DNA of 64,000 nt from Desulfomonile tiedjei DSM 6799. GTDB lineage: Bacteria; Desulfobacterota; Desulfomonilia; Desulfomonilales; Desulfomonilaceae. This document shows, piece by piece, positions 2,083-40,851 of this stretch. Every line of letters begins with the position of its first letter. Position 1 is the stretch's first letter. Position numbers and translations under genes: made by a program. The stretch spans positions 1,302,001 to 1,366,000 of the forward strand of contig NC_018025.1 in NCBI RefSeq assembly GCF_000266945.1, in the 5' to 3' direction. The notes beneath the pieces are model-generated. The model was given only the letters and a program-made list of their open reading frames with translations. It did not search any database and was not told the DNA's origin.

Positions 2083-2771
2083 GAGGATTGATCGCAGGAT
2101 TAGCATTGTGGCTGTTGTTCGGTCAGGGAATCGCTTCCGCCCAGGATCGCCCTGCTGCAATCGATCAAATTGTAGGAAAATTACAGGAAGTCTATTCGCA
2201 TCATTGTTGTTTTAAGGCGCGTTTCGATCAGTTGACGGTAAATACGGCAATGGACCTGAGAGATAAGTTTCAAGGCGTCATGTTCGTGAAGAAACCCGGC
2301 TCCATTTCATTGGAAGTGGATTTCCCTGAACCACAAAAAGTCGTCGTAAAAGGAAAGACATACGCGATCTATTTTCCCCAGGACGGGACCTCTGCAAACG
2401 GTGAAATACCACCCGAGATGAACGTGGAGCAATTTTTCGGCTTTTTCACCAATATCGGAAATCTGGGCCGAAACTTCACAATCACCTTTCCTCCAAAGGC
2501 TCTGGACAAAGAAGAGAATATGTATTTTCTGGAATTGACCGATGCAGTCAACCCGAGCAGCACGTACAGGATGGTCCTCGGGATCGATGCTGCAAAATTC
2601 ACGGTGAAACGTGCAATCATCTACGATGCTCTGGGTAATTACAACCGCTTTGACTTGACGGATTTTACATTTCTCGATTCTCTTCCGGATTCCCGCTTTG
2701 AAATATCGAGCGCGCCCCTGCACAAACTCCCCCCTGCACAAGGTTTTTACGGTAATCGTGAGAAACAGTAA
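2079..2771 (+). CDS. lolA: LolA-like outer-membrane lipoprotein carrier protein
   Basis: A 230-residue exported protein. Residues 1-21 form a signal peptide with a hydrophobic core and AxA-like cleavage site (GIASAQD). The mature part fits LolA: a helix with FKARFDQLTV, a beta strand with KFQGVMFVKKPGSISLEV, then alternating strands that build the open barrel holding lipoprotein acyl chains in the periplasm. Length is close to the family norm. The start overlaps the ATPase stop by 4 nt and the end overlaps the rimO start, implying translational coupling. The family call is good; assigning it as the main LolA is an inference because genomes of this type can carry several LolA-fold proteins. 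Confidence 0.82.
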   Translation: MRGLIAGLALWLLFGQGIASAQDRPAAIDQIVGKLQEVYSHHCCFKARFDQLTVNTAMDLRDKFQGVMFVKKPGSISLEVDFPEPQKVVVKGKTYAIYFPQDGTSANGEIPPEMNVEQFFGFFTNIGNLGRNFTITFPPKALDKEENMYFLELTDAVNPSSTYRMVLGIDAAKFTVKRAIIYDALGNYNRFDLTDFTFLDSLPDSRFEISSAPLHKLPPAQGFYGNREKQ

Positions 2772-4068
2772 GACAGTTCACATCATAAGTCTTGGATGTC
2801 CGAAGAACAGGGTGGACACGGAACGTATTCTCTCTACTCTCTTCGACCGGGGATATACACACTCGGACGATCCGTTGACCGCTCGGTATATCATCATCAA
2901 CACCTGTGCATTCATCGAACCAGCCGTAGAAGAATCCATAGATGCAATTCTCGATGTCAAGTCAGAGCATCCGGATGCATTTGTTGTCGTGGCCGGCTGT
3001 CTGCCATTACGATACAGAGAAGACCTGGTGGATTCGCTCCCGGAGATTGACCTTTTTCTCACTCCGGATCGTATCCATGAACTTCCGGACTTGATTGCTG
3101 CCAAGACCGCACCAGATCCCCGGGGCGACACGATCTACGGAGCTTCCGTATCCGGACGAGTTCTCACCACCCCTGGCTATGCTTATCTGAAAATCGCTGA
3201 AGGATGCTCCAGAAGATGTACGTACTGCACCATTCCTTCCATACGCGGCCCGCTCAGGAGCTATGATAGCGAGATGCTGGCTCAGGAAGCGGAATCTCTG
3301 GCTTCCTGCAATGTCAGAGAACTGGTGTTGGTTGCGCAGGATCTCACGGCCTATGGAGTGGAAAAAAACGAGAAACACTCCTTAACCAATCTTCTCAAAA
3401 GATTGGAAATTATTCAGGATCTCAGATGGATACGTCTCATGTATCTTCACCCGGACGGCATACCTCGATCTCTTCCGGAACTGATGAAGAATTCCGAGAA
3501 AATACTGCCGTACATGGATATTCCGTTTCAGCACGTATCCGACCACGTGCTCAAGTCCATGGGGAGACCCTGGAAAGGAAACCGGATACGCAAATTGGTT
3601 GACAATCTGCGGAACGCAATTCCGGGCCTGGTCCTCCGTACGACCTTTATGGTGGGATTTCCGACGGAAAGGGACGAGGACTTTCAAGAATTGAGAGACT
3701 TTGTCCAAGAGTTCCGAATCGAACATGTTGGCGTTTTCGCATATTCCCCCGAGGAAGGCACTCCCGCGTTTGACCTGGGGAACCCGATTCCTGATCAGGT
3801 GAAAAATGCGCGATCCAGTGAAATACAAAACATACATTCTCGGTTCATAAAACGCAGATTGAAGGAAAAGGTGGGTACAACGCAGGAAAGCATTATCGAA
3901 GGAGTATCCTCGGAAACGGATCTATTGCTCCAGGGACGCACCTGGGATCAGGCTCCCGAAGTCGATGGTGTGCTCTATATCACTTCCGGAGATGGTATTG
4001 CGGGTGAAATACACAAAGTGAAAATTACTGCCACGCATGGGCCCGATCTTTTCGGGGAAATTATCTGA
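2758..4068 (+). CDS. rimO: Ribosomal protein S12 methylthiotransferase RimO
   Basis: A radical-SAM methylthiotransferase that modifies an aspartate of ribosomal protein S12. The N-terminal UPF0004 domain has its three cluster cysteines in ISLGCPKNRVDTE, NTCAF and VAGCLP; the SLGCPKN form is typical of RimO rather than MiaB. The radical-SAM cluster is C150-x3-C154-x2-C157 (CSRRCTYC). The TRAM domain closes the protein. I chose the GTG at 2758 (436 aa), 14 nt before the lolA stop, because residues from there align with the family start; an in-frame TTG at 2698 would add 20 residues inside lolA and looks unlikely. It is the last gene of the cysS run. Confidence 0.93.
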   Translation: MRNSKTVHIISLGCPKNRVDTERILSTLFDRGYTHSDDPLTARYIIINTCAFIEPAVEESIDAILDVKSEHPDAFVVVAGCLPLRYREDLVDSLPEIDLFLTPDRIHELPDLIAAKTAPDPRGDTIYGASVSGRVLTTPGYAYLKIAEGCSRRCTYCTIPSIRGPLRSYDSEMLAQEAESLASCNVRELVLVAQDLTAYGVEKNEKHSLTNLLKRLEIIQDLRWIRLMYLHPDGIPRSLPELMKNSEKILPYMDIPFQHVSDHVLKSMGRPWKGNRIRKLVDNLRNAIPGLVLRTTFMVGFPTERDEDFQELRDFVQEFRIEHVGVFAYSPEEGTPAFDLGNPIPDQVKNARSSEIQNIHSRFIKRRLKEKVGTTQESIIEGVSSETDLLLQGRTWDQAPEVDGVLYITSGDGIAGEIHKVKITATHGPDLFGEII

Positions 4069-33942: not shown

Positions 33943-34392
33943 CTACTTCTTCTTAATCTTTGTCTCCACATCCTGGATGTATTTTTCGAGATTCCTTCTT
34001 ACTACAGGCCGTTTCTCACGTGTAAGCGCTTCCTGGTAAGCCTTTAGGGCCGAAGGATAATTCTTCTGAATCTCATACACCAGTCCCATGAGGCCGTATG
34101 CCTCGGGATAGTTCGGATTCAACTGAACCGCTTTCTGAAGATCCAGTATGCTCTTGTCATATTCCCCCATCTTGGAATACGCAATAGCTCGATTGTGATA
34201 GGTGAGATAAAAGTTTGCGTTCTGTTCGATGGATCTGGTGAACAGGTCTATGGCCCGTTCCCATTTTTCCACGCGCAACGCGAATTCCCCCTGCTCATAG
34301 AAATCCAGGTAATCGTCGCCCGTTGCAGTTCCGACAAGAACCGCGCACAGAATCACCAGAGCCCAAAGAAATCGCATTGGTTTCGTTCCCAT
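33943..34392 (-). CDS. Exported TPR protein
   Basis: About 149 residues. A signal peptide (FLWALVILCAVLVGTATG) is followed by three tetratricopeptide repeats (YEQGEFALRVEKWERAIDLF, AYSKMGEYDKSILDLQKAV, VYEIQKNYPSALKAYQEAL). TPRs mediate protein contacts; its partner is unknown. The start is uncertain: ATG 34392, ATG 34377 and GTG 34401 are all possible and none has a strong ribosome-binding site. It is divergent from the acyltransferase gene. Confidence 0.8.
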   Translation of the reverse strand: MGTKPMRFLWALVILCAVLVGTATGDDYLDFYEQGEFALRVEKWERAIDLFTRSIEQNANFYLTYHNRAIAYSKMGEYDKSILDLQKAVQLNPNYPEAYGLMGLVYEIQKNYPSALKAYQEALTREKRPVVRRNLEKYIQDVETKIKKK

Positions 34393-34595
34393 ACTTGCCA
34401 CAACCGGAGCCCCTGAAAGATGTGTATATTAACACAAAATTATCTGAAGAAAACCTTTTCTTTACGGCACATTTATTTTTCTCCGAGCAGACAAACTCCA
34501 TTGCCCAACGATGCTCGGATCTGATAGCCTCTCTTCACACGAGCCCGCAAAACGAGTATCGACCCGTTTCCCCTCCGCGCGGGCGGATCCATGAT

Positions 34596-37220
34596 ATGAC
34601 TCAGAGGAGGCCCAGGCCGCATATGAACGAATCCGTTAACGGAAAAACCGTTCCGGAACATTTGAGAAACGGTCATTTCACGCATGTTGCAGGGATACTG
34701 GACCAAGAACCGCCCTGGATACTACGTAAACTCATCCCGATACTCTCAAAGCAAGTCCGAATTGACGACGAAGTTATTGGCAGGCTCCGTGAGCTCCAGG
34801 CTGCCGGGCCTGTCGTCTATGCCATGAAGTATCGCAACATCTACGATTTGCATTTTCTCCGTATGCGATTTGCGGAACTTGGCCTTCCGGTTCCTTCTTT
34901 TGTTTTCGATACTTCCGCAGCAGCCACAGGATCGTTCCGGAAATTTTTCAAGGTGTGGGGCGCGACTTTGAGCGGAGTCATCCAGCAGCACCGATTTCCG
35001 AGACCATCGGAGGACGTGCTGAAGGAAATACTCGAAAACCGCGGCAGTGCAGCAGTGACATTCCTTGTCGATGAAAAAACGACAAGAGATCGATACGTAT
35101 ATCCTGACAGCGATCCGATAAGAATCCTTCTGGACGTACAGGGCCGGCTTTCCGCTTCCATAGCCATTGTTCCGTTGATCATCCTCTATGATCGCAGCCG
35201 TCGCAACGTGGTACCTTCATTCTGGGAAACCCTTCTGGGCGATCCGGATAATCCCGGCTTTGTGCGGAGGATTGCCACGGCATTCAGAACGTGGACCGTC
35301 CCGGAACTCTTGATAGGCGAACCGGTTCATCTGGTCGCGGAATTCGAGGAATTCGGTTCCAGTCCGGAATGGGACGAGTTACCCGTTCGAGTGCGGCAGA
35401 AGCTTGTCGATTCCATTAACTCACGAATTCGAGTGAACAGGGGGCCTGAAAAGTTATCCCGTACGGAAATGAAAGAACGGGTTCTGCAAGATGCGCGGGT
35501 ACAGCGGTCGGTCAGGGAAATTGCATCGAAGGAGGGAGAAACCGAGGAGAAGACGAAGAAACTCGCCGAATCCTATGTAGACGAGATTGCCGCGAATCAG
35601 CAACTTCAGATTCACCATTTCCTTTATTATGTACTTAGGGCGCTCTTTGCCAAAGTCTTTGACGGCGTAGATAGCCAAGCATCTGATTTTGCGAAGCTGA
35701 AAAAAGCGAACGCAGAATCGTCTTTGATCTATGTTTCGTGCCATAAGAGCCATTTTGATTACCTGCTTGTCGGGTATTTCTCATTTATCAACCAAATGGC
35801 CATTCCTCACATGGCCGCAGGCAAGAATCTTTCATTTTGGCCCATCGGACCGATACTGCGTCGAGGCGGAGCATTCTTCATTCGACGGACGTTCAGAGGA
35901 CTGGGGCTGTATACGTATGTTTTTACAGCATATCTCAAAGTCCTTGTTCGGGAAAAAATCAATATAAACTTCTATATAGAAGGCGCCAGGAGCAGAACGG
36001 GTAAATTGACGCCCCCTAGAATGGGCATGCTGGCCTTTCTCCTCCAGACCATAGAAGAAGGGGCGGTCCCGGATCTCATTTTTGTGCCGACATACATAGG
36101 ATACGATCGCGTACCGGAAGAAAAGTCTTATCTCAAAGAATTAGCGGGAAAAGAAAAAGAAAAAGAGAGCTTTTGGCAGTTTCTTCAGGCTCGGACCGTA
36201 CTCAAGAAGCGATTCGGAAAAGTGTATGTAAGGTTTCGAGATCCGGTTTCCTTTGTGGAATTCTGTTCTCTCGCAGGACATCAAGTGCAACCAGGAAGCT
36301 CTTTTCTGAAAGAAAATCGGAAACTGCTCCAGGATTTCGCATACTACCTGATGTATGGAATTGTACGGGCCGGTGTGGTGAGCCATATCGATCTCACCGC
36401 AGCAGGGTTGATCTGCAGAGGAGCGGAGCAAGTCACTCGTGAAGAATTGGTTGAAGCGGTACAATGTTTTTGGGACGTATGTAACCATGAAGGTTTCGAG
36501 CTTTCTCAGACTGCCAAAGATCCTGAATTCGCAGTAAGAAATGCTCTTGATTCTTTCGTGGCACGAGGGTTCCTGGAAACAGGTGAAGGAGCATCCAATG
36601 AGAATACAATATTCAAGGTGAGTCAATCCAGAGTTCCCAATTTAGATTTTTATAGAAATGGAATAGTGAATTGCGTGTGGGACTCGTCGTTGCTAGCCAT
36701 GATTCTCCTGGGCAGAGGCCCCGAAGCTCTGGAGAACCTCTCGGTGATATCCGAGGAATTTGAACTCTTGAAGGATCTCCTTTCAAAAGAGCTCATCGTT
36801 AACCCTCTCCAGAAGACGTCGAATTCGCTTGCAGAAAAGATCCGGTTCTTCAGGGAGCAGAACTGGATTTATTCACAAGGAGAATCGCTCATACTGCGTA
36901 AGGCCCCGCTGGAGTGCCTGGCCGGAGTGCTGCGCGACCTCGTTGAAATTTACTATGTTGCTCTGGTTGCTTCGGAAGATGCTCGGGAAGTAAGCCAAAA
37001 AGAACTGATGAAAAAAATGGCATTTCTCATGGAAGAAGCCCGAAACACGGAGAATCCTCGTCTCAAACCGGCTCTTGCCGCAGTTCCCGTTAATAACGCG
37101 TTGACGCGTTACTCGGAACTGGGGATTCTCGAATATCGGACTTCCAGAAAGTATCTGACCGGAGTAGCGGATCACCAGCAACTGACATCAGTGAAGAACC
37201 TGTTGAGCAGCCTTCTGTGA
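34596..37220 (+). CDS. plsB: Glycerol-3-phosphate acyltransferase, PlsB type
   Basis: About 874 residues. The four acyltransferase motifs are clear: HKSHFD (H-x4-D, near residue 383), GGAFFIRRTF, NFYIEGARSRTGKLTPPRMGM and LIFVPTYIGYDRVPEE. Large flanking helical regions are those of PlsB, which makes 1-acyl-glycerol-3-phosphate at the inner membrane. Start choice is hard: ATG 34596 has GGCGGA 8 nt upstream, while ATG 34623 has AGAGGAGG but 12 nt away; the upstream open frame to 34323 overlaps the divergent gene and is discounted. Co-occurrence with a PlsX/PlsY system cannot be judged here. Confidence 0.9.
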   Translation: MTQRRPRPHMNESVNGKTVPEHLRNGHFTHVAGILDQEPPWILRKLIPILSKQVRIDDEVIGRLRELQAAGPVVYAMKYRNIYDLHFLRMRFAELGLPVPSFVFDTSAAATGSFRKFFKVWGATLSGVIQQHRFPRPSEDVLKEILENRGSAAVTFLVDEKTTRDRYVYPDSDPIRILLDVQGRLSASIAIVPLIILYDRSRRNVVPSFWETLLGDPDNPGFVRRIATAFRTWTVPELLIGEPVHLVAEFEEFGSSPEWDELPVRVRQKLVDSINSRIRVNRGPEKLSRTEMKERVLQDARVQRSVREIASKEGETEEKTKKLAESYVDEIAANQQLQIHHFLYYVLRALFAKVFDGVDSQASDFAKLKKANAESSLIYVSCHKSHFDYLLVGYFSFINQMAIPHMAAGKNLSFWPIGPILRRGGAFFIRRTFRGLGLYTYVFTAYLKVLVREKININFYIEGARSRTGKLTPPRMGMLAFLLQTIEEGAVPDLIFVPTYIGYDRVPEEKSYLKELAGKEKEKESFWQFLQARTVLKKRFGKVYVRFRDPVSFVEFCSLAGHQVQPGSSFLKENRKLLQDFAYYLMYGIVRAGVVSHIDLTAAGLICRGAEQVTREELVEAVQCFWDVCNHEGFELSQTAKDPEFAVRNALDSFVARGFLETGEGASNENTIFKVSQSRVPNLDFYRNGIVNCVWDSSLLAMILLGRGPEALENLSVISEEFELLKDLLSKELIVNPLQKTSNSLAEKIRFFREQNWIYSQGESLILRKAPLECLAGVLRDLVEIYYVALVASEDAREVSQKELMKKMAFLMEEARNTENPRLKPALAAVPVNNALTRYSELGILEYRTSRKYLTGVADHQQLTSVKNLLSSLL

Positions 37221-37228
37221 ACTCCTGC

Positions 37229-37576
37229 TCACTTGCCCCGGTGATGTCTTCGATAATTGGCCGCCCAGTTGGTGAAGACATCCTCACCATGGCCGATTAC
37301 GCCGTACCCGCCGTAAAGGTCGTTCCAATGTTGTGTTGCCTCGAGTGTGGCTTTGAATTCGGCCGATCCGGAGTGTTGAATGGGATTGAGCCATCTGCGA
37401 ACACCAAAAGTGTATTCGTATGGATCTCCTTTGTGACTGGGATATGGCACATTCCTGGTGAGGGGATATTCCAGGCTATAGGGAAGGACTTTCGTATGCA
37501 TAGGCTGCATGGCCCATCCACCGCTAAAGCTCAGGAGAACAAGACCTACTGCTGCTATGAGGAGAGATTTTCTCAT
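37229..37576 (-). CDS. Small exported protein of unknown function
   Basis: 115 residues. Signal peptide at about 1-22 (KSLLIAAVGLVLLSFSGGWA). The mature protein is basic and rich in Tyr, His, Trp and Gly (DPYEYTFGVRRW, QHWNDLYGGYG, NWAANYRRHHRGK) with no cysteine. GGAG precedes the ATG at 37576; the frame open to 37627 is less likely. It ends 8 nt from the convergent plsB. I do not recognise it. Confidence 0.75.
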   Translation of the reverse strand: MRKSLLIAAVGLVLLSFSGGWAMQPMHTKVLPYSLEYPLTRNVPYPSHKGDPYEYTFGVRRWLNPIQHSGSAEFKATLEATQHWNDLYGGYGVIGHGEDVFTNWAANYRRHHRGK

Positions 37577-37731
37577 GGGTGCTCCGCTTAAAGAATGAAT
37601 ACCTCGACGTTTATTGAACAATATCATATATCATTCTGATTTGGCAAGTATAAATTACTGGATAGTCCGAGATTACAAATAGCAACTGGTACTGTATCTT
37701 TCGATTTCACAACAAAAATTGCATCCATTTC

Positions 37732-37756
37732 ATGGAATTTTACTCTGGTATTCCAT
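37732..37756 (+). promoter_or_regulatory. Candidate upstream activator site for the sigma-54 promoter
   Basis: ATGGAAT (37732-37738) and ATTCCAT (37750-37756) are a perfect inverted repeat, half-sites 18 bp apart centre to centre. It is centred about 168 nt upstream of the predicted start, in the range used by NtrC-type activators. No activator gene is adjacent. Confidence 0.4.
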
Positions 37757-37884
37757 TTCAATCTAAAACAATTCCTTATCATGGTGTCAGTTTCTCTTAC
37801 AGTTCATCCAAAGAATTTACAGATGCCATTATCGGAAGGATGCGTAATATTGTGTCGTTTTGACGGATATTCCAGAGATGTTAC

Positions 37885-37901
37885 TTGGCACTCTCATTGC
37901 A
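37885..37901 (+). promoter_or_regulatory. Sigma-54 (RpoN) promoter
   Basis: TTGGCAC-TCTCA-TTGCA matches the sigma-54 consensus TGGCAC-N5-TTGCW at every fixed base, with the -24 GG and -12 GC ten nucleotides apart. The predicted start is near 37912, about 100 nt before the gene at 38012. Confidence 0.75.
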
Positions 37902-38011
37902 TAGTTGTCTTTTTGTCACCTTGAGGACGAGAGGAAATCCACCGAGCGTGGCAGGGCTGAACGAGAACGCCTAAATGTACGAGCATCACGACCCCAAGTA
38001 GGAGGTGAGCC

Positions 38012-38494
38012 ATGATAATTCAGAATCACGAACTATTCAGGGAATTGAGCCAGGAAACGATATTCGAGATTTCCAAAGTCATGGTCGAACAACGTTTCAA
38101 CAAAGGAGCCATAGTTTATACGCAAAAAGATCGTGCTCTCTATTTTTACATTTTGGGCGAAGGAAACGTCCGACTCACCATGGCGGAACAAGCCGAAATC
38201 GATTACAGCGTCACCAGGACAGGAGAAGTTTTTGGGTGGTCAAGCATGGTAGGACGTCGTTACTACACTGCGAATGCCGAGTGTCTTCAGCCGAGCAAGG
38301 TGTACATGATCGACAAGGAAAAACTTATAACTATTTTTCAGAAGAACCCCAGAGACGGAATGAAGTTTTATGAGCGTCTTGCGGCTGCAGTAGTGCAACG
38401 ACTGGTAGACAACTACAACGCTTTTATTACAGGCGGGACTCTTCAAGGGGTTACCTACGGCTCCGGTCAGGTCATGGGCGCGGGCGAGGAATAG
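38012..38494 (+). CDS. Cyclic-nucleotide-binding-domain protein without DNA-binding domain
   Basis: 160 residues made almost wholly of a Crp/Fnr-type sensor domain (about 5-135: FRELSQETIFEISKVM, FNKGAIVYTQKD, LYFYILGEGNVRLT, GEVFGWSSMVG, KVYMIDKEKLITIF). There is no helix-turn-helix, and the protein stops after a Gly-rich tail, so it is not a transcription factor alone. The cAMP phosphate-binding cassette is weak: GEVFGWSSMV keeps the Gly-Glu but lacks the usual Arg, so the ligand is uncertain. TAGGAGGTG precedes the ATG. It lies alone downstream of a sigma-54 promoter. Confidence 0.85.
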   Translation: MIIQNHELFRELSQETIFEISKVMVEQRFNKGAIVYTQKDRALYFYILGEGNVRLTMAEQAEIDYSVTRTGEVFGWSSMVGRRYYTANAECLQPSKVYMIDKEKLITIFQKNPRDGMKFYERLAAAVVQRLVDNYNAFITGGTLQGVTYGSGQVMGAGEE

Positions 38495-38621
38495 AGGGAA
38501 AGCAAAATTGAAGGGATCTCCGGAAAACAGGGGGTCCCCTATAAGCGTTAAAACAAGAATCCGGCGTAAGATGTGATGACCAAAGCGATCCGCATCTTTT
38601 TTGCCAGAGTTTCTGAATGAC

Positions 38622-38710
38622 TGTCATTGCGAGCGAAGCGAAGCAATCGCCTGAAATTGAGAGCCTGAATCCCAGGCGATTGCCACGTCGCTGCGCTCCT
38701 CGCAATGACA
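38622..38710. repeat. Palindromic repeat C (TGTCATTGCGAG type)
   Basis: An 89-bp element bounded by TGTCATTGCGAG (38622-38633) and its perfect complement CTCGCAATGACA (38699-38710), with an inner pair (GCAATCGCCT / AGGCGATTGC). I know this as a common intergenic palindrome in many bacteria of different phyla. Only one copy is in this window. Confidence 0.8.
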
Positions 38711-38779
38711 ATTATCTGTTTTCTTTGATGGTTTATGCCCCGCAAACGTAATCATGAAACAGATATTCCTTTCTTTACA

Positions 38780-38810
38780 GATTACACATAATGACTCCAC
38801 ATGTGTAATC
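38780..38810. promoter_or_regulatory. Perfect 10-bp inverted repeat
   Basis: GATTACACAT (38780-38789) and ATGTGTAATC (38801-38810) are exactly complementary around an 11-nt spacer. No T-run follows, so it is not a typical terminator. It resembles a dimeric regulator site, about 500 nt upstream of the YeiH-type gene. Confidence 0.45.
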
Positions 38811-39312
38811 GAGAGTGTATCAACAAAGCAATTGGAATTGCGCCCCCTCTATACGCGAATCAAGCTCGCATTTTGCCGCGCTAAAAAATCGCGTGATACC
38901 AATGTGCGTTCAAAGAAGTAATCCCGCCACCGGCGGGACCGGCCCAAAACAGATCTCTCAATACTCCTTCTGTGAAAGTATATTGGTATGACACAGAATT
39001 AGAGCAATTTGCGGGCATCTGAAACAGCACAATTTTGTTCTTTGTGCAGGAGAATTGTTATATAGATTAACTGAACGAGAGAAAGCCGGCTGACGTCTGC
39101 CGGAGCCTTTGAATCGTTGCTCTATGGCGCTGCGACAGCCTGTTCTACGAGTCAACATACGAAAACGGGTGCCTTTGCTTCATTACATTTTTAGATCGGG
39201 GGAGGTGATAAGACCAGTCATTTGCAAAAGTCTCTCTCATACTAATCCATTCAGTTAAAGACTGTGGTCTATGTATCGCGCTCGGACGCACCGAGAAAGG
39301 AGCTGACAAGCT

Positions 39313-40851
39313 ATGTCAAACGGCAAACTAGGTTGGTCAGTACTTTGGAAAACAGAAGATTGGCTGGCTGTATGGATAGGATTTCTCATCATCGGTCTGG
39401 TGCTCGCAGGACTCACGGTAAAACCGCCGAAGTTCAAATGGGCCACCGAGGGTGAGTTTAAAACGTTTGTCAATGAGATGACTCCTGTAGTGGACAACTT
39501 GGCCAAACAGGCTGCTGCCAAAGGCGAACAGGACCTTCAAACCCAAGCTGCAGCTCTGAAAGCGGCCATGGAAAAGGGCGACAGAAAAGCAGTTGGAGAC
39601 GCGGCGAAAAAACTGGAGTCTACGGCCAAGAACGTCAAAGATAAAGATTTGAAGAAAAAGGGAGCCGATCTGGGCAAGCAGATTTCCGGAAACGCCGGAA
39701 ACTTGATCGGCAAAGTATTTTCCTCAGACAACATTCTCTGGTCCATATACATAGCAATCGGTATTCTCATTCTGAGCGTCATTGCCCTATCTCTCCTGGG
39801 AGTAAATGTAGGGCTCTTTGTGATAGGTTTTCCCATAGTGTTCATTATTGCGTGGATTTCATTACTTCTTGCGGGTAATTACACGATCAATGTATATGGC
39901 CTGGAATATGTCCTGTGGTGTCTGTTTCTTGGACTTTTCATAAGTAACGTAATTGGTGTACCTGATTGGCTGAAACCTGCTGTTCAGACCGAGTTTTATA
40001 TCAAAACAGGTCTCGTGGTTCTCGGTGCAGGTATTCTCTTTGGAGAGATTATCCAGGCGGGAGCGCTCGGCATTCTCCAGGCAGTGTTGGTGGTCGGTGT
40101 CGTCTGGTACATGTGCTACTGGATTGCCCGTAAACTTCAAGTAGATGAAGAATTTTCGGCAATTCTGGCAAGTGCCGTTTCCATCTGCGGTGTATCGGCT
40201 GCCATTGCAACTTCGGGCGCAATAAAGGGCGATCCCAAGAAATTGAGCTACACAACATCCATCGTGCTCATCTGCGCGGTTCCCATGATGGTTCTGCAGC
40301 CAATCATATCGAAGTACTTCGGCATACCGGATGCGGTTGCCGGAGCATGGCTTGGCGGGACTCTCGACACGAGCGGGTCCGTTGTTGCTGCGGGCTCTCT
40401 TATCAGCGAAACGGCCATGAAGGTCGGCGTTATCGTCAAAATGTCCCAGAACGTGCTCATCGGTGTTGCCGCCTTCATCTTGGCTGTGGTCTGGACCTTC
40501 AAGAAGGCGGAGGAAGTACCTGGCGGCGAAAAACCCGGTGCGATCGAAATATGGAACAGATTTCCCAAGTTCGTTCTCGGGTTCATGATTGCATCGTTGA
40601 TTTTCTCATTCTTGCTGCCTGAAGCGACAGTGAAGGCAACAAAGGGTGTGCTATCCGGCTTACGGACATACTGGTTCGCTCTGGCCTTCGTTTCTATCGG
40701 ATTGGAAACCAGATTTGCAGAATTGGCGACTCTTGGCGGCGGCCGACCTGCGATAGCATTCCTTATAGCTCAGGGAATCAACATACTCTGGACCTTACTT
40801 CTGGCTTATCTCATTTTTGGCGGAATTCTGTTCGCCGCACCCGCCTTCTAG
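39313..40851 (+). CDS. YeiH/UPF0324-family transporter with inserted soluble domain
   Basis: 512 residues, against about 330-350 for ordinary YeiH. After TM1 (about 17-37) comes a soluble, Ala/Lys-rich helical segment (about 41-138). The polytopic core then follows with the family blocks (VLGAGILFGEII, ASAVSICGVSAAIATSGAIKG, AGAWLGGTLDTSGSVVAAGSLI, FVSIGLETRF). Distant relatives are called putative sulfate exporters, but the substrate is unproven. Long versions of this kind would fit sulfate reducers handling sulfur anions; that is inference. AAAGGAG lies 10 nt before the ATG. The gene stands alone. Confidence 0.88.
   Translation: MSNGKLGWSVLWKTEDWLAVWIGFLIIGLVLAGLTVKPPKFKWATEGEFKTFVNEMTPVVDNLAKQAAAKGEQDLQTQAAALKAAMEKGDRKAVGDAAKKLESTAKNVKDKDLKKKGADLGKQISGNAGNLIGKVFSSDNILWSIYIAIGILILSVIALSLLGVNVGLFVIGFPIVFIIAWISLLLAGNYTINVYGLEYVLWCLFLGLFISNVIGVPDWLKPAVQTEFYIKTGLVVLGAGILFGEIIQAGALGILQAVLVVGVVWYMCYWIARKLQVDEEFSAILASAVSICGVSAAIATSGAIKGDPKKLSYTTSIVLICAVPMMVLQPIISKYFGIPDAVAGAWLGGTLDTSGSVVAAGSLISETAMKVGVIVKMSQNVLIGVAAFILAVVWTFKKAEEVPGGEKPGAIEIWNRFPKFVLGFMIASLIFSFLLPEATVKATKGVLSGLRTYWFALAFVSIGLETRFAELATLGGGRPAIAFLIAQGINILWTLLLAYLIFGGILFAAPAF

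Follow-up and report, generated by a model that had tools for sequence, protein, structure and literature searches.

We wanted to understand why, in Desulfomonile tiedjei DSM 6799, a gene for a stand-alone cyclic-nucleotide-binding-fold protein of 160 aa (38012-38494, + strand) lies downstream of a consensus sigma-54 promoter element, an arrangement that a preliminary description of this DNA had singled out as unusual and had taken to mean that RpoN controls a lone domain, possibly an adaptor. The question is, on the one hand, whether the promoter and the protein are what they seem and, on the other hand, whether their connection is a property of the protein family or of this locus. All positions are those of the window, i.e. 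the whole 64-kb stretch of DNA that was analyzed.

The -24/-12 element upstream of the sensor gene

The promoter element TTGGCAC-N5-TTGCA occupies 37885-37901 on the + strand and consists, letter for letter as first described, of TTGGCAC (37885-37891), the spacer TCTCA, and TTGCA (37897-37901). It matches the sigma-54 consensus TGGCAC-N5-TTGCW exactly, and its GG at -24 and GC at -12 are spaced in the canonical 12-nt register. The element is intergenic and has the same orientation as the sensor gene, with 111 nt from the element to the ATG; from promoter geometry, transcription is predicted to start at 37912 on the + strand, 12 nt after the C of the -12 part. When the consensus was searched in the window, six matches with at most one mismatch were found, and the one at 37885-37901 was the sole exact match. 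By chance, 0.1 exact matches are expected per shuffle of the whole window (both strands), and when the 384-nt intergenic region was shuffled 20,000 times, 0.035% of the shuffles contained an exact match. In the whole genome (6,527,027 bases in two contigs), the exact motif occurs 30 times compared with 10 times for a reversed-motif control, which is a threefold enrichment. As judged by one simple ORF caller used on both sets, 21 of the 30 exact sites, but none of the 10 controls, lie between ORFs, and 15 of the 30 have, besides their intergenic position, an ORF start no more than 350 nt away, again compared with 0 of 10.

The genome encodes one RpoN DNA-binding domain and contains 77 Sigma54_activat matches, of which 67 are strong AAA+ domains; with 67 strong activator domains, sigma-54 control is common in D. 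tiedjei. Within the window there is no Sigma54_activat match, and the nearest strong one ends ~41 kb before the window start. According to a study of D. vulgaris (PMC4641369), this organism has the third-highest number of activators relative to genome size, behind D. tiedjei and Desulfomicrobium baculatum, and its sigma-54 motif is tGGcacg / tTGCt. Because the motif is enriched in the genome, placed between genes, and rare in shuffled DNA, and because RpoN and its activators are present, we conclude that 37885-37901 is very probably a real sigma-54 promoter, as the preliminary description had proposed.

The 160-aa protein and its family

The ORF at 38012-38494 is preceded by a strong Shine-Dalgarno sequence (AGGAGGTGA), and its product matches the Pfam family cNMP_binding (PF00027) with 56.3 bits against a cut-off of 27.5; the only other Pfam match was insignificant. 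Pfam gave no match to a DNA-binding domain, and the ORF ends after the C-terminal helix and a tail, with no helix-turn-helix. The protein is thus the sensor domain without a DNA-binding part that had been described, and, as the C-terminal helix-turn-helix is absent, it is not a CRP/FNR transcription factor. The AlphaFold model (mean pLDDT 83) comprises a beta-roll, a C-terminal helix (residues 113-141), and a low-confidence tail (residues 148-160), and the tail contains the sequence VTYGSGQV. Searched as DNA, a tail motif of this type occurs once in the genome, at the sensor gene, and the reversed control also occurs once. The best fold match in the PDB, as identified with Foldseek, is 3mdp (E 8.7e-11, 28% identity).

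In cyclic-nucleotide-binding proteins, a Glu and an Arg of the phosphate-binding cassette hold the cyclic nucleotide. When the 160-aa protein was aligned to cGMP-dependent protein kinase, the Glu and Arg of the kinase lay opposite Trp76 and Tyr85. By this signature, the protein falls outside the cAMP/cGMP-binding subset. The cassette is therefore altered, as had been said, but to call it weakened was an understatement, since almost every member of the family has other residues at both signature positions. The replacement by Trp76 and Tyr85, together with the family alignment, makes a non-cAMP ligand plausible for this protein, and an adaptor role, which had also been suggested, plausible with it.

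The protein belongs to a multi-copy family of single-domain proteins with the cyclic-nucleotide-binding fold, found mostly in sulfate-reducing and related deltaproteobacteria. Among 60 genomes searched (its own included), 48 had some match at E 0.001 or better, whereas strong matches (E below 1e-20) came only from its own taxonomic family and a single genome outside it. The 160-aa protein shares 52% identity with the nearest protein, has two further close copies in its own genome (49% and 36% identical), and is not grouped with any one relative in the family tree. For the counts that follow, a close set was formed from 22 of 28 tblastn matches (E below 1e-25, starting at residue 1-2, the window included). 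A scan of a second collection gave 83 loci, of which the best 80, mostly deltaproteobacterial, were kept; from these came a wider set of 51 loci (L121-L171), with L114-L120 left out as duplicate genomes and L172-L193 for E values above 1e-15. L165, the match to which starts at residue 7, was left out of the upstream and neighbor counts.

In 71 distinct proteins of at least 130 residues, Ala42, Gly51, Gly71, Glu72, Phe74, and Gly75 are invariant, and Trp76 is found in 68, Tyr85 in 70, and Cys91 in 64; because the wider scan used a pattern containing GE[AV]FGW, Gly71-Trp76 was partly preselected in the wider set, whereas Tyr85, Cys91, and the tail lay outside the patterns. Further, the motif (S/T)(Y/F/H)G is present in 41 of 54 C-terminal tails, compared with a mean of 3.0 and a maximum of 8 for shuffled tails, a count to be read with the motif having been defined after inspection of the tails and with kinship among members inflating it. 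Several members end exactly in PSYG, tails with the motif are present on both main sides of the family tree, and some members have no tail and end after the C-terminal helix. The 160-aa protein fits the family in its FGW...Y...C cassette, its C-terminal helix, its (S/T)(Y/F/H)G tail, and its lack of any other domain. Because so many members share the tail, we favor a role for it in binding a partner. No study of this stand-alone sensor family was recognized in the open-access literature, as judged by titles and the openings of abstracts.

Gene neighborhood and conservation of the arrangement

Upstream of the sensor gene, profile and homologue searches identified a PlsB-like glycerol-3-phosphate acyltransferase gene (34323-37220, + strand), followed by a small gene (37229-37627, - strand) that is convergent with the plsB-like gene and divergent from the sensor gene. 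The product of the small gene, which is probably secreted (judged by eye), has no Pfam match; a homologue of it accompanies the plsB-like gene in 5 of the 11 loci examined in relatives. Downstream, 818 nt separate the sensor gene from the next larger + strand ORF (39313-40851), which encodes a YeiH-like transporter of the Cons_hypoth698 family (the Pfam match is over its cut-off, and TIGR00698 is below its own). The two genes are not tightly linked, in agreement with the description of the sensor gene as the only gene downstream of the promoter. Two dispersed repeats lie in this gap. That at 38612-38722 is a palindromic, REP-like repeat (TCATTGCGAGCGAAGC...) with at least about 40 copies in the genome, many of them 93-96% identical (40 of 86 candidates were scored, so that the count is a lower bound). 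That at 38888-38996 is a MITE-like element, with terminal inverted repeats TGATACCAAT ... ATTGGTATGA recognized by eye; scoring of 40 out of 98 candidates in the genome gave tens of copies, full or partial, several of which are split into two ends ~100 nt apart. Rfam gave no match in 37200-39400 at gathering scores, and a comparison with plasmid records gave none either.

The lone organization of the gene had been regarded as peculiar, a view that the family does not bear out. Among members with both neighbors on the contig (22 of 22 close and 41 of 50 wide), simple ORF calls placed a same-strand ORF within 150 nt of just 6 of 22 close and 8 of 41 wider members, with one close entry (L042 at 2775) shortened by an in-frame stop. 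A lone sensor domain is therefore not unusual, because the family is usually encoded without a close same-strand neighbor. The neighbors themselves are mixed and include Usp, Na+/H+ exchanger, MFS, PHO4, ChrB-like, histidine kinase, and NrfD proteins; clustering of the neighbors revealed no consistent partner gene, the largest non-family cluster covering 8 loci. Five sensor-gene loci (L045, L046, L047, L049, and L053) contain a gene of the Usp cluster, and three of these also contain one of the Na+/H+ exchanger cluster.

The flanking genes were used to look for the same locus in relatives. A plsB-like gene was present in all 11 family relatives searched (G001-G011; G012-G017 lay outside that search), and in none of the 11 loci was it beside a family gene; the full 1.5 kb of downstream flank was available in 8 of the 11 loci and was shorter in G001, G003, and G010, the G001 contig ending at the end of the match. 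The PlsB-like protein of G001, the only same-genus genome among the 11, is 65% identical to that of the window, a value so low that the two are hardly the same species. The three close copies of the family gene in G001 have other genes upstream than the copy at 38012-38494 has, and a same-genus homologue (L050) has no -24/-12 element in the 400 nt above it. On the other side, no family member is encoded on the contigs that carry the five closest relatives of the transporter gene (72-79% identical), although one of these relatives starts 239 bases into its contig. Because neither the plsB loci nor the contigs of the transporter's relatives contain the family gene, the copy at this locus and its promoter were found, among the relatives' loci examined, only in this genome. 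No orthologous locus was found for footprinting of the promoter, the nearest protein being the one of 52% identity cited above.

We then scored the DNA upstream of 72 family genes against the sigma-54 consensus. In the adjoining intergenic DNA, the window scored 1.0 and the next best site 0.9, none of the 71 other family genes reached 0.95, and scores of at least 0.85 were found 7 times on the forward strand and 4 times on the reverse control strand. Three of these 7 sites, before L128, L136, and L140, are identical (TGGATCTGTTCTTGCG, containing TGGATC-N5-TTGCG) and lie at -235 before the family gene; they may be a promoter conserved in a subgroup or other conserved DNA. When the search was extended to 1 kb upstream (67,712 nt in total), scores of at least 0.9 were found at 4 forward sites (the window, L059, L051, and L055) and no reverse site. 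The sites of L051 and L055, both scoring 0.9, look by eye like coding DNA, the former in a ChrB-like gene region and the latter in an open frame. Apart from the window, L059 (genome G002, 2700-3260) was thus the one family gene of 71 to reach 0.95: its TGGCAT-N5-TTGCT lies 381 nt above the family gene and just before a TusA-like gene (PF01206, 37.3 bits against 28.6), which ends 72 nt above the family gene. The family member of L059, ~40% identical to the window's protein, is a distant paralogue, and its pairing with the TusA-like gene may constitute an independent sigma-54 operon.

The preliminary description had named the loss of the -24/-12 bases in relatives that keep the gene as one observation that would count against it. 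With 1 of 71 other family genes having a site of at least 0.95 within 1 kb upstream, and that one before a TusA-like gene, the outcome speaks mostly against a conserved arrangement. As no relative was found that keeps the gene at this locus, the outcome bears on conservation and not on the function of the site here; equally, the lack of conservation means that selection on the site cannot be demonstrated. In the open-access literature, as far as titles and abstract openings reveal, no report of a sigma-54-driven stand-alone cyclic-nucleotide-binding protein was recognized.

Weighing of the explanations and comparison with known systems

If the -24/-12 match were a chance or decayed site, the gene would be either silent or transcribed from an ordinary sigma-70-type promoter, and it would then be no surprise that the site is missing from nearly all family relatives, that the gene was not found at this locus in any relative, and that the reversed-motif control predicts ~10 exact matches genome-wide. 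We regard this as improbable, because 21 of 30 real matches but no control match are intergenic and because a sigma-70-type scan of 37500-39330, which gave 3 matches in total, as many as the shuffled mean, found none on the + strand ahead of the start codon. The opposite reading, in which gene, promoter, and upstream activator sequence form a designed control unit, depends on the inverted repeat at 37732-37756 (ATGGAAT at 37732-37738 and ATTCCAT at 37750-37756, i.e. perfect 7-bp arms with an 11-nt spacer), at which a dedicated enhancer-binding protein would act. The letters of this repeat are where they had been reported, ~140 nt above the -24 element, which is a plausible distance for an activator site, and with at most one mismatch the repeat is found at six places in the genome compared with none for the reversed control. 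The activator site that had been read into it was not supported, since the repeat is at chance level: perfect 7-bp inverted repeats with a spacer of 3-30 number 1 in the real intergenic DNA and 0.8 on average in 1000 shuffles, 46% of which contain at least one. Further, all four examined of the five other places lie inside ORFs, and the repeat is also within the intergenic DNA upstream of the divergent gene 37229-37627 and could therefore serve that gene instead. The shuffle frequency and the copies inside ORFs led us to reject the repeat as an operator and not to count it as an activator site, and they make the designed unit highly improbable.

Two other explanations concern the protein. It could still sense cAMP or cGMP and act as a buffer or adaptor, as CbpA of Pseudomonas aeruginosa does with cAMP; its membership of the cyclic-nucleotide-binding fold is clear, but the positions of the nucleotide-holding Glu and Arg are Trp and Tyr in nearly all members, and we think such sensing quite unlikely. 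Alternatively, it could be the soluble regulatory subunit of a transporter, for instance of the YeiH-like transporter 818 nt downstream, in keeping with several close paralogues that share their locus with Na+/H+ exchanger, MFS, PHO4, and Usp proteins. We consider this unlikely, given that neighbors vary among family loci, that two dispersed repeats occupy the gap before 39313, and that the transporter's closest relatives occur on contigs without a family member (with the one near its contig start included).

We favor, with a probability of about 60% for the full account including its mechanism, a lineage-specific sigma-54 hookup of one paralogue of a probably non-cAMP, adaptor-like sensor family. 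The element at 37885-37901, for which the argument is statistical, would be a working promoter that transcribes the 160-aa gene alone from the predicted start. Transcription would be switched on when one of the many enhancer-binding activators, bound at a site that we did not recognize, is activated. The product, as predicted by the model and the alignment, would be a single beta-roll sensor domain extended by a long helix and then by a flexible C-terminal tail that carries (S/T)(Y/F/H)G. Because the residues that hold cAMP or cGMP have been lost, the altered pocket most likely holds another small molecule, or no ligand, and the helix and tail would pass the state of the sensor to a partner protein encoded elsewhere.

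Overall, the promoter and the sensor protein are both of known kinds, and it is their connection that is lineage-specific and rare among relatives. We assign the sigma-54 link to the present paralogue and its lineage rather than to the family at large, in which a comparable link may have arisen separately in one distant paralogue of a different genome. As a tentative generalization, which we consider unlikely as a whole, the family with the Trp/Tyr/Cys pocket might read a non-cyclic-nucleotide ligand and signal to a partner via the conserved C-terminal SYG peptide. Individual copies would have come under the control of sigma-54 on separate occasions in separate lineages, the present gene being one case and the TusA-like/sensor pair of L059 perhaps another, and synthesis of the adaptor would thereby be restricted to times at which a specific activator is active. 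If the favored account is right, the view of the gene as an oddity, a solitary adaptor placed under RpoN, has to be revised: the sensor is a member of a widespread family whose altered pocket and tail motif are testable features, and what is local is the rewiring by the sigma-54 promoter.

Among known systems, the sigma-54 promoters of sulfate reducers, as given for D. vulgaris in PMC4641369, have the same -24/-12 consensus as 37885-37901. In contrast to promoters of that type, the element at 37885-37901 is not conserved among family members and has no recognized activator site. The sensor halves of CRP/FNR regulators (the DNR sensor domain 2z69, Clr 7pza, and GlxR) share their fold with the 160-aa protein, which differs from these regulators in having no helix-turn-helix and none of the cAMP signature residues. 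CbpA is, like it, a bacterial cyclic-nucleotide-binding protein without a DNA-binding domain; the likeness is one of general description, and CbpA binds cAMP whereas the 160-aa protein has lost the cAMP residues. A review describes CbpA of P. aeruginosa as a second cAMP effector, alongside Vfr. The putative cyclic nucleotide-binding protein Gmet_1532 of Geobacter metallireducens (PDB 3mdp) differs from the 160-aa protein in having Val instead of Trp at position 76, and its deposited chain of 142 residues stops at the C-terminal helix, lacking the (S/T)(Y/F/H)G tail. Like the 160-aa protein, it is a single fold with no DNA-binding part in the entry, the Glu is absent, and a Tyr replaces the phosphate-binding Arg.
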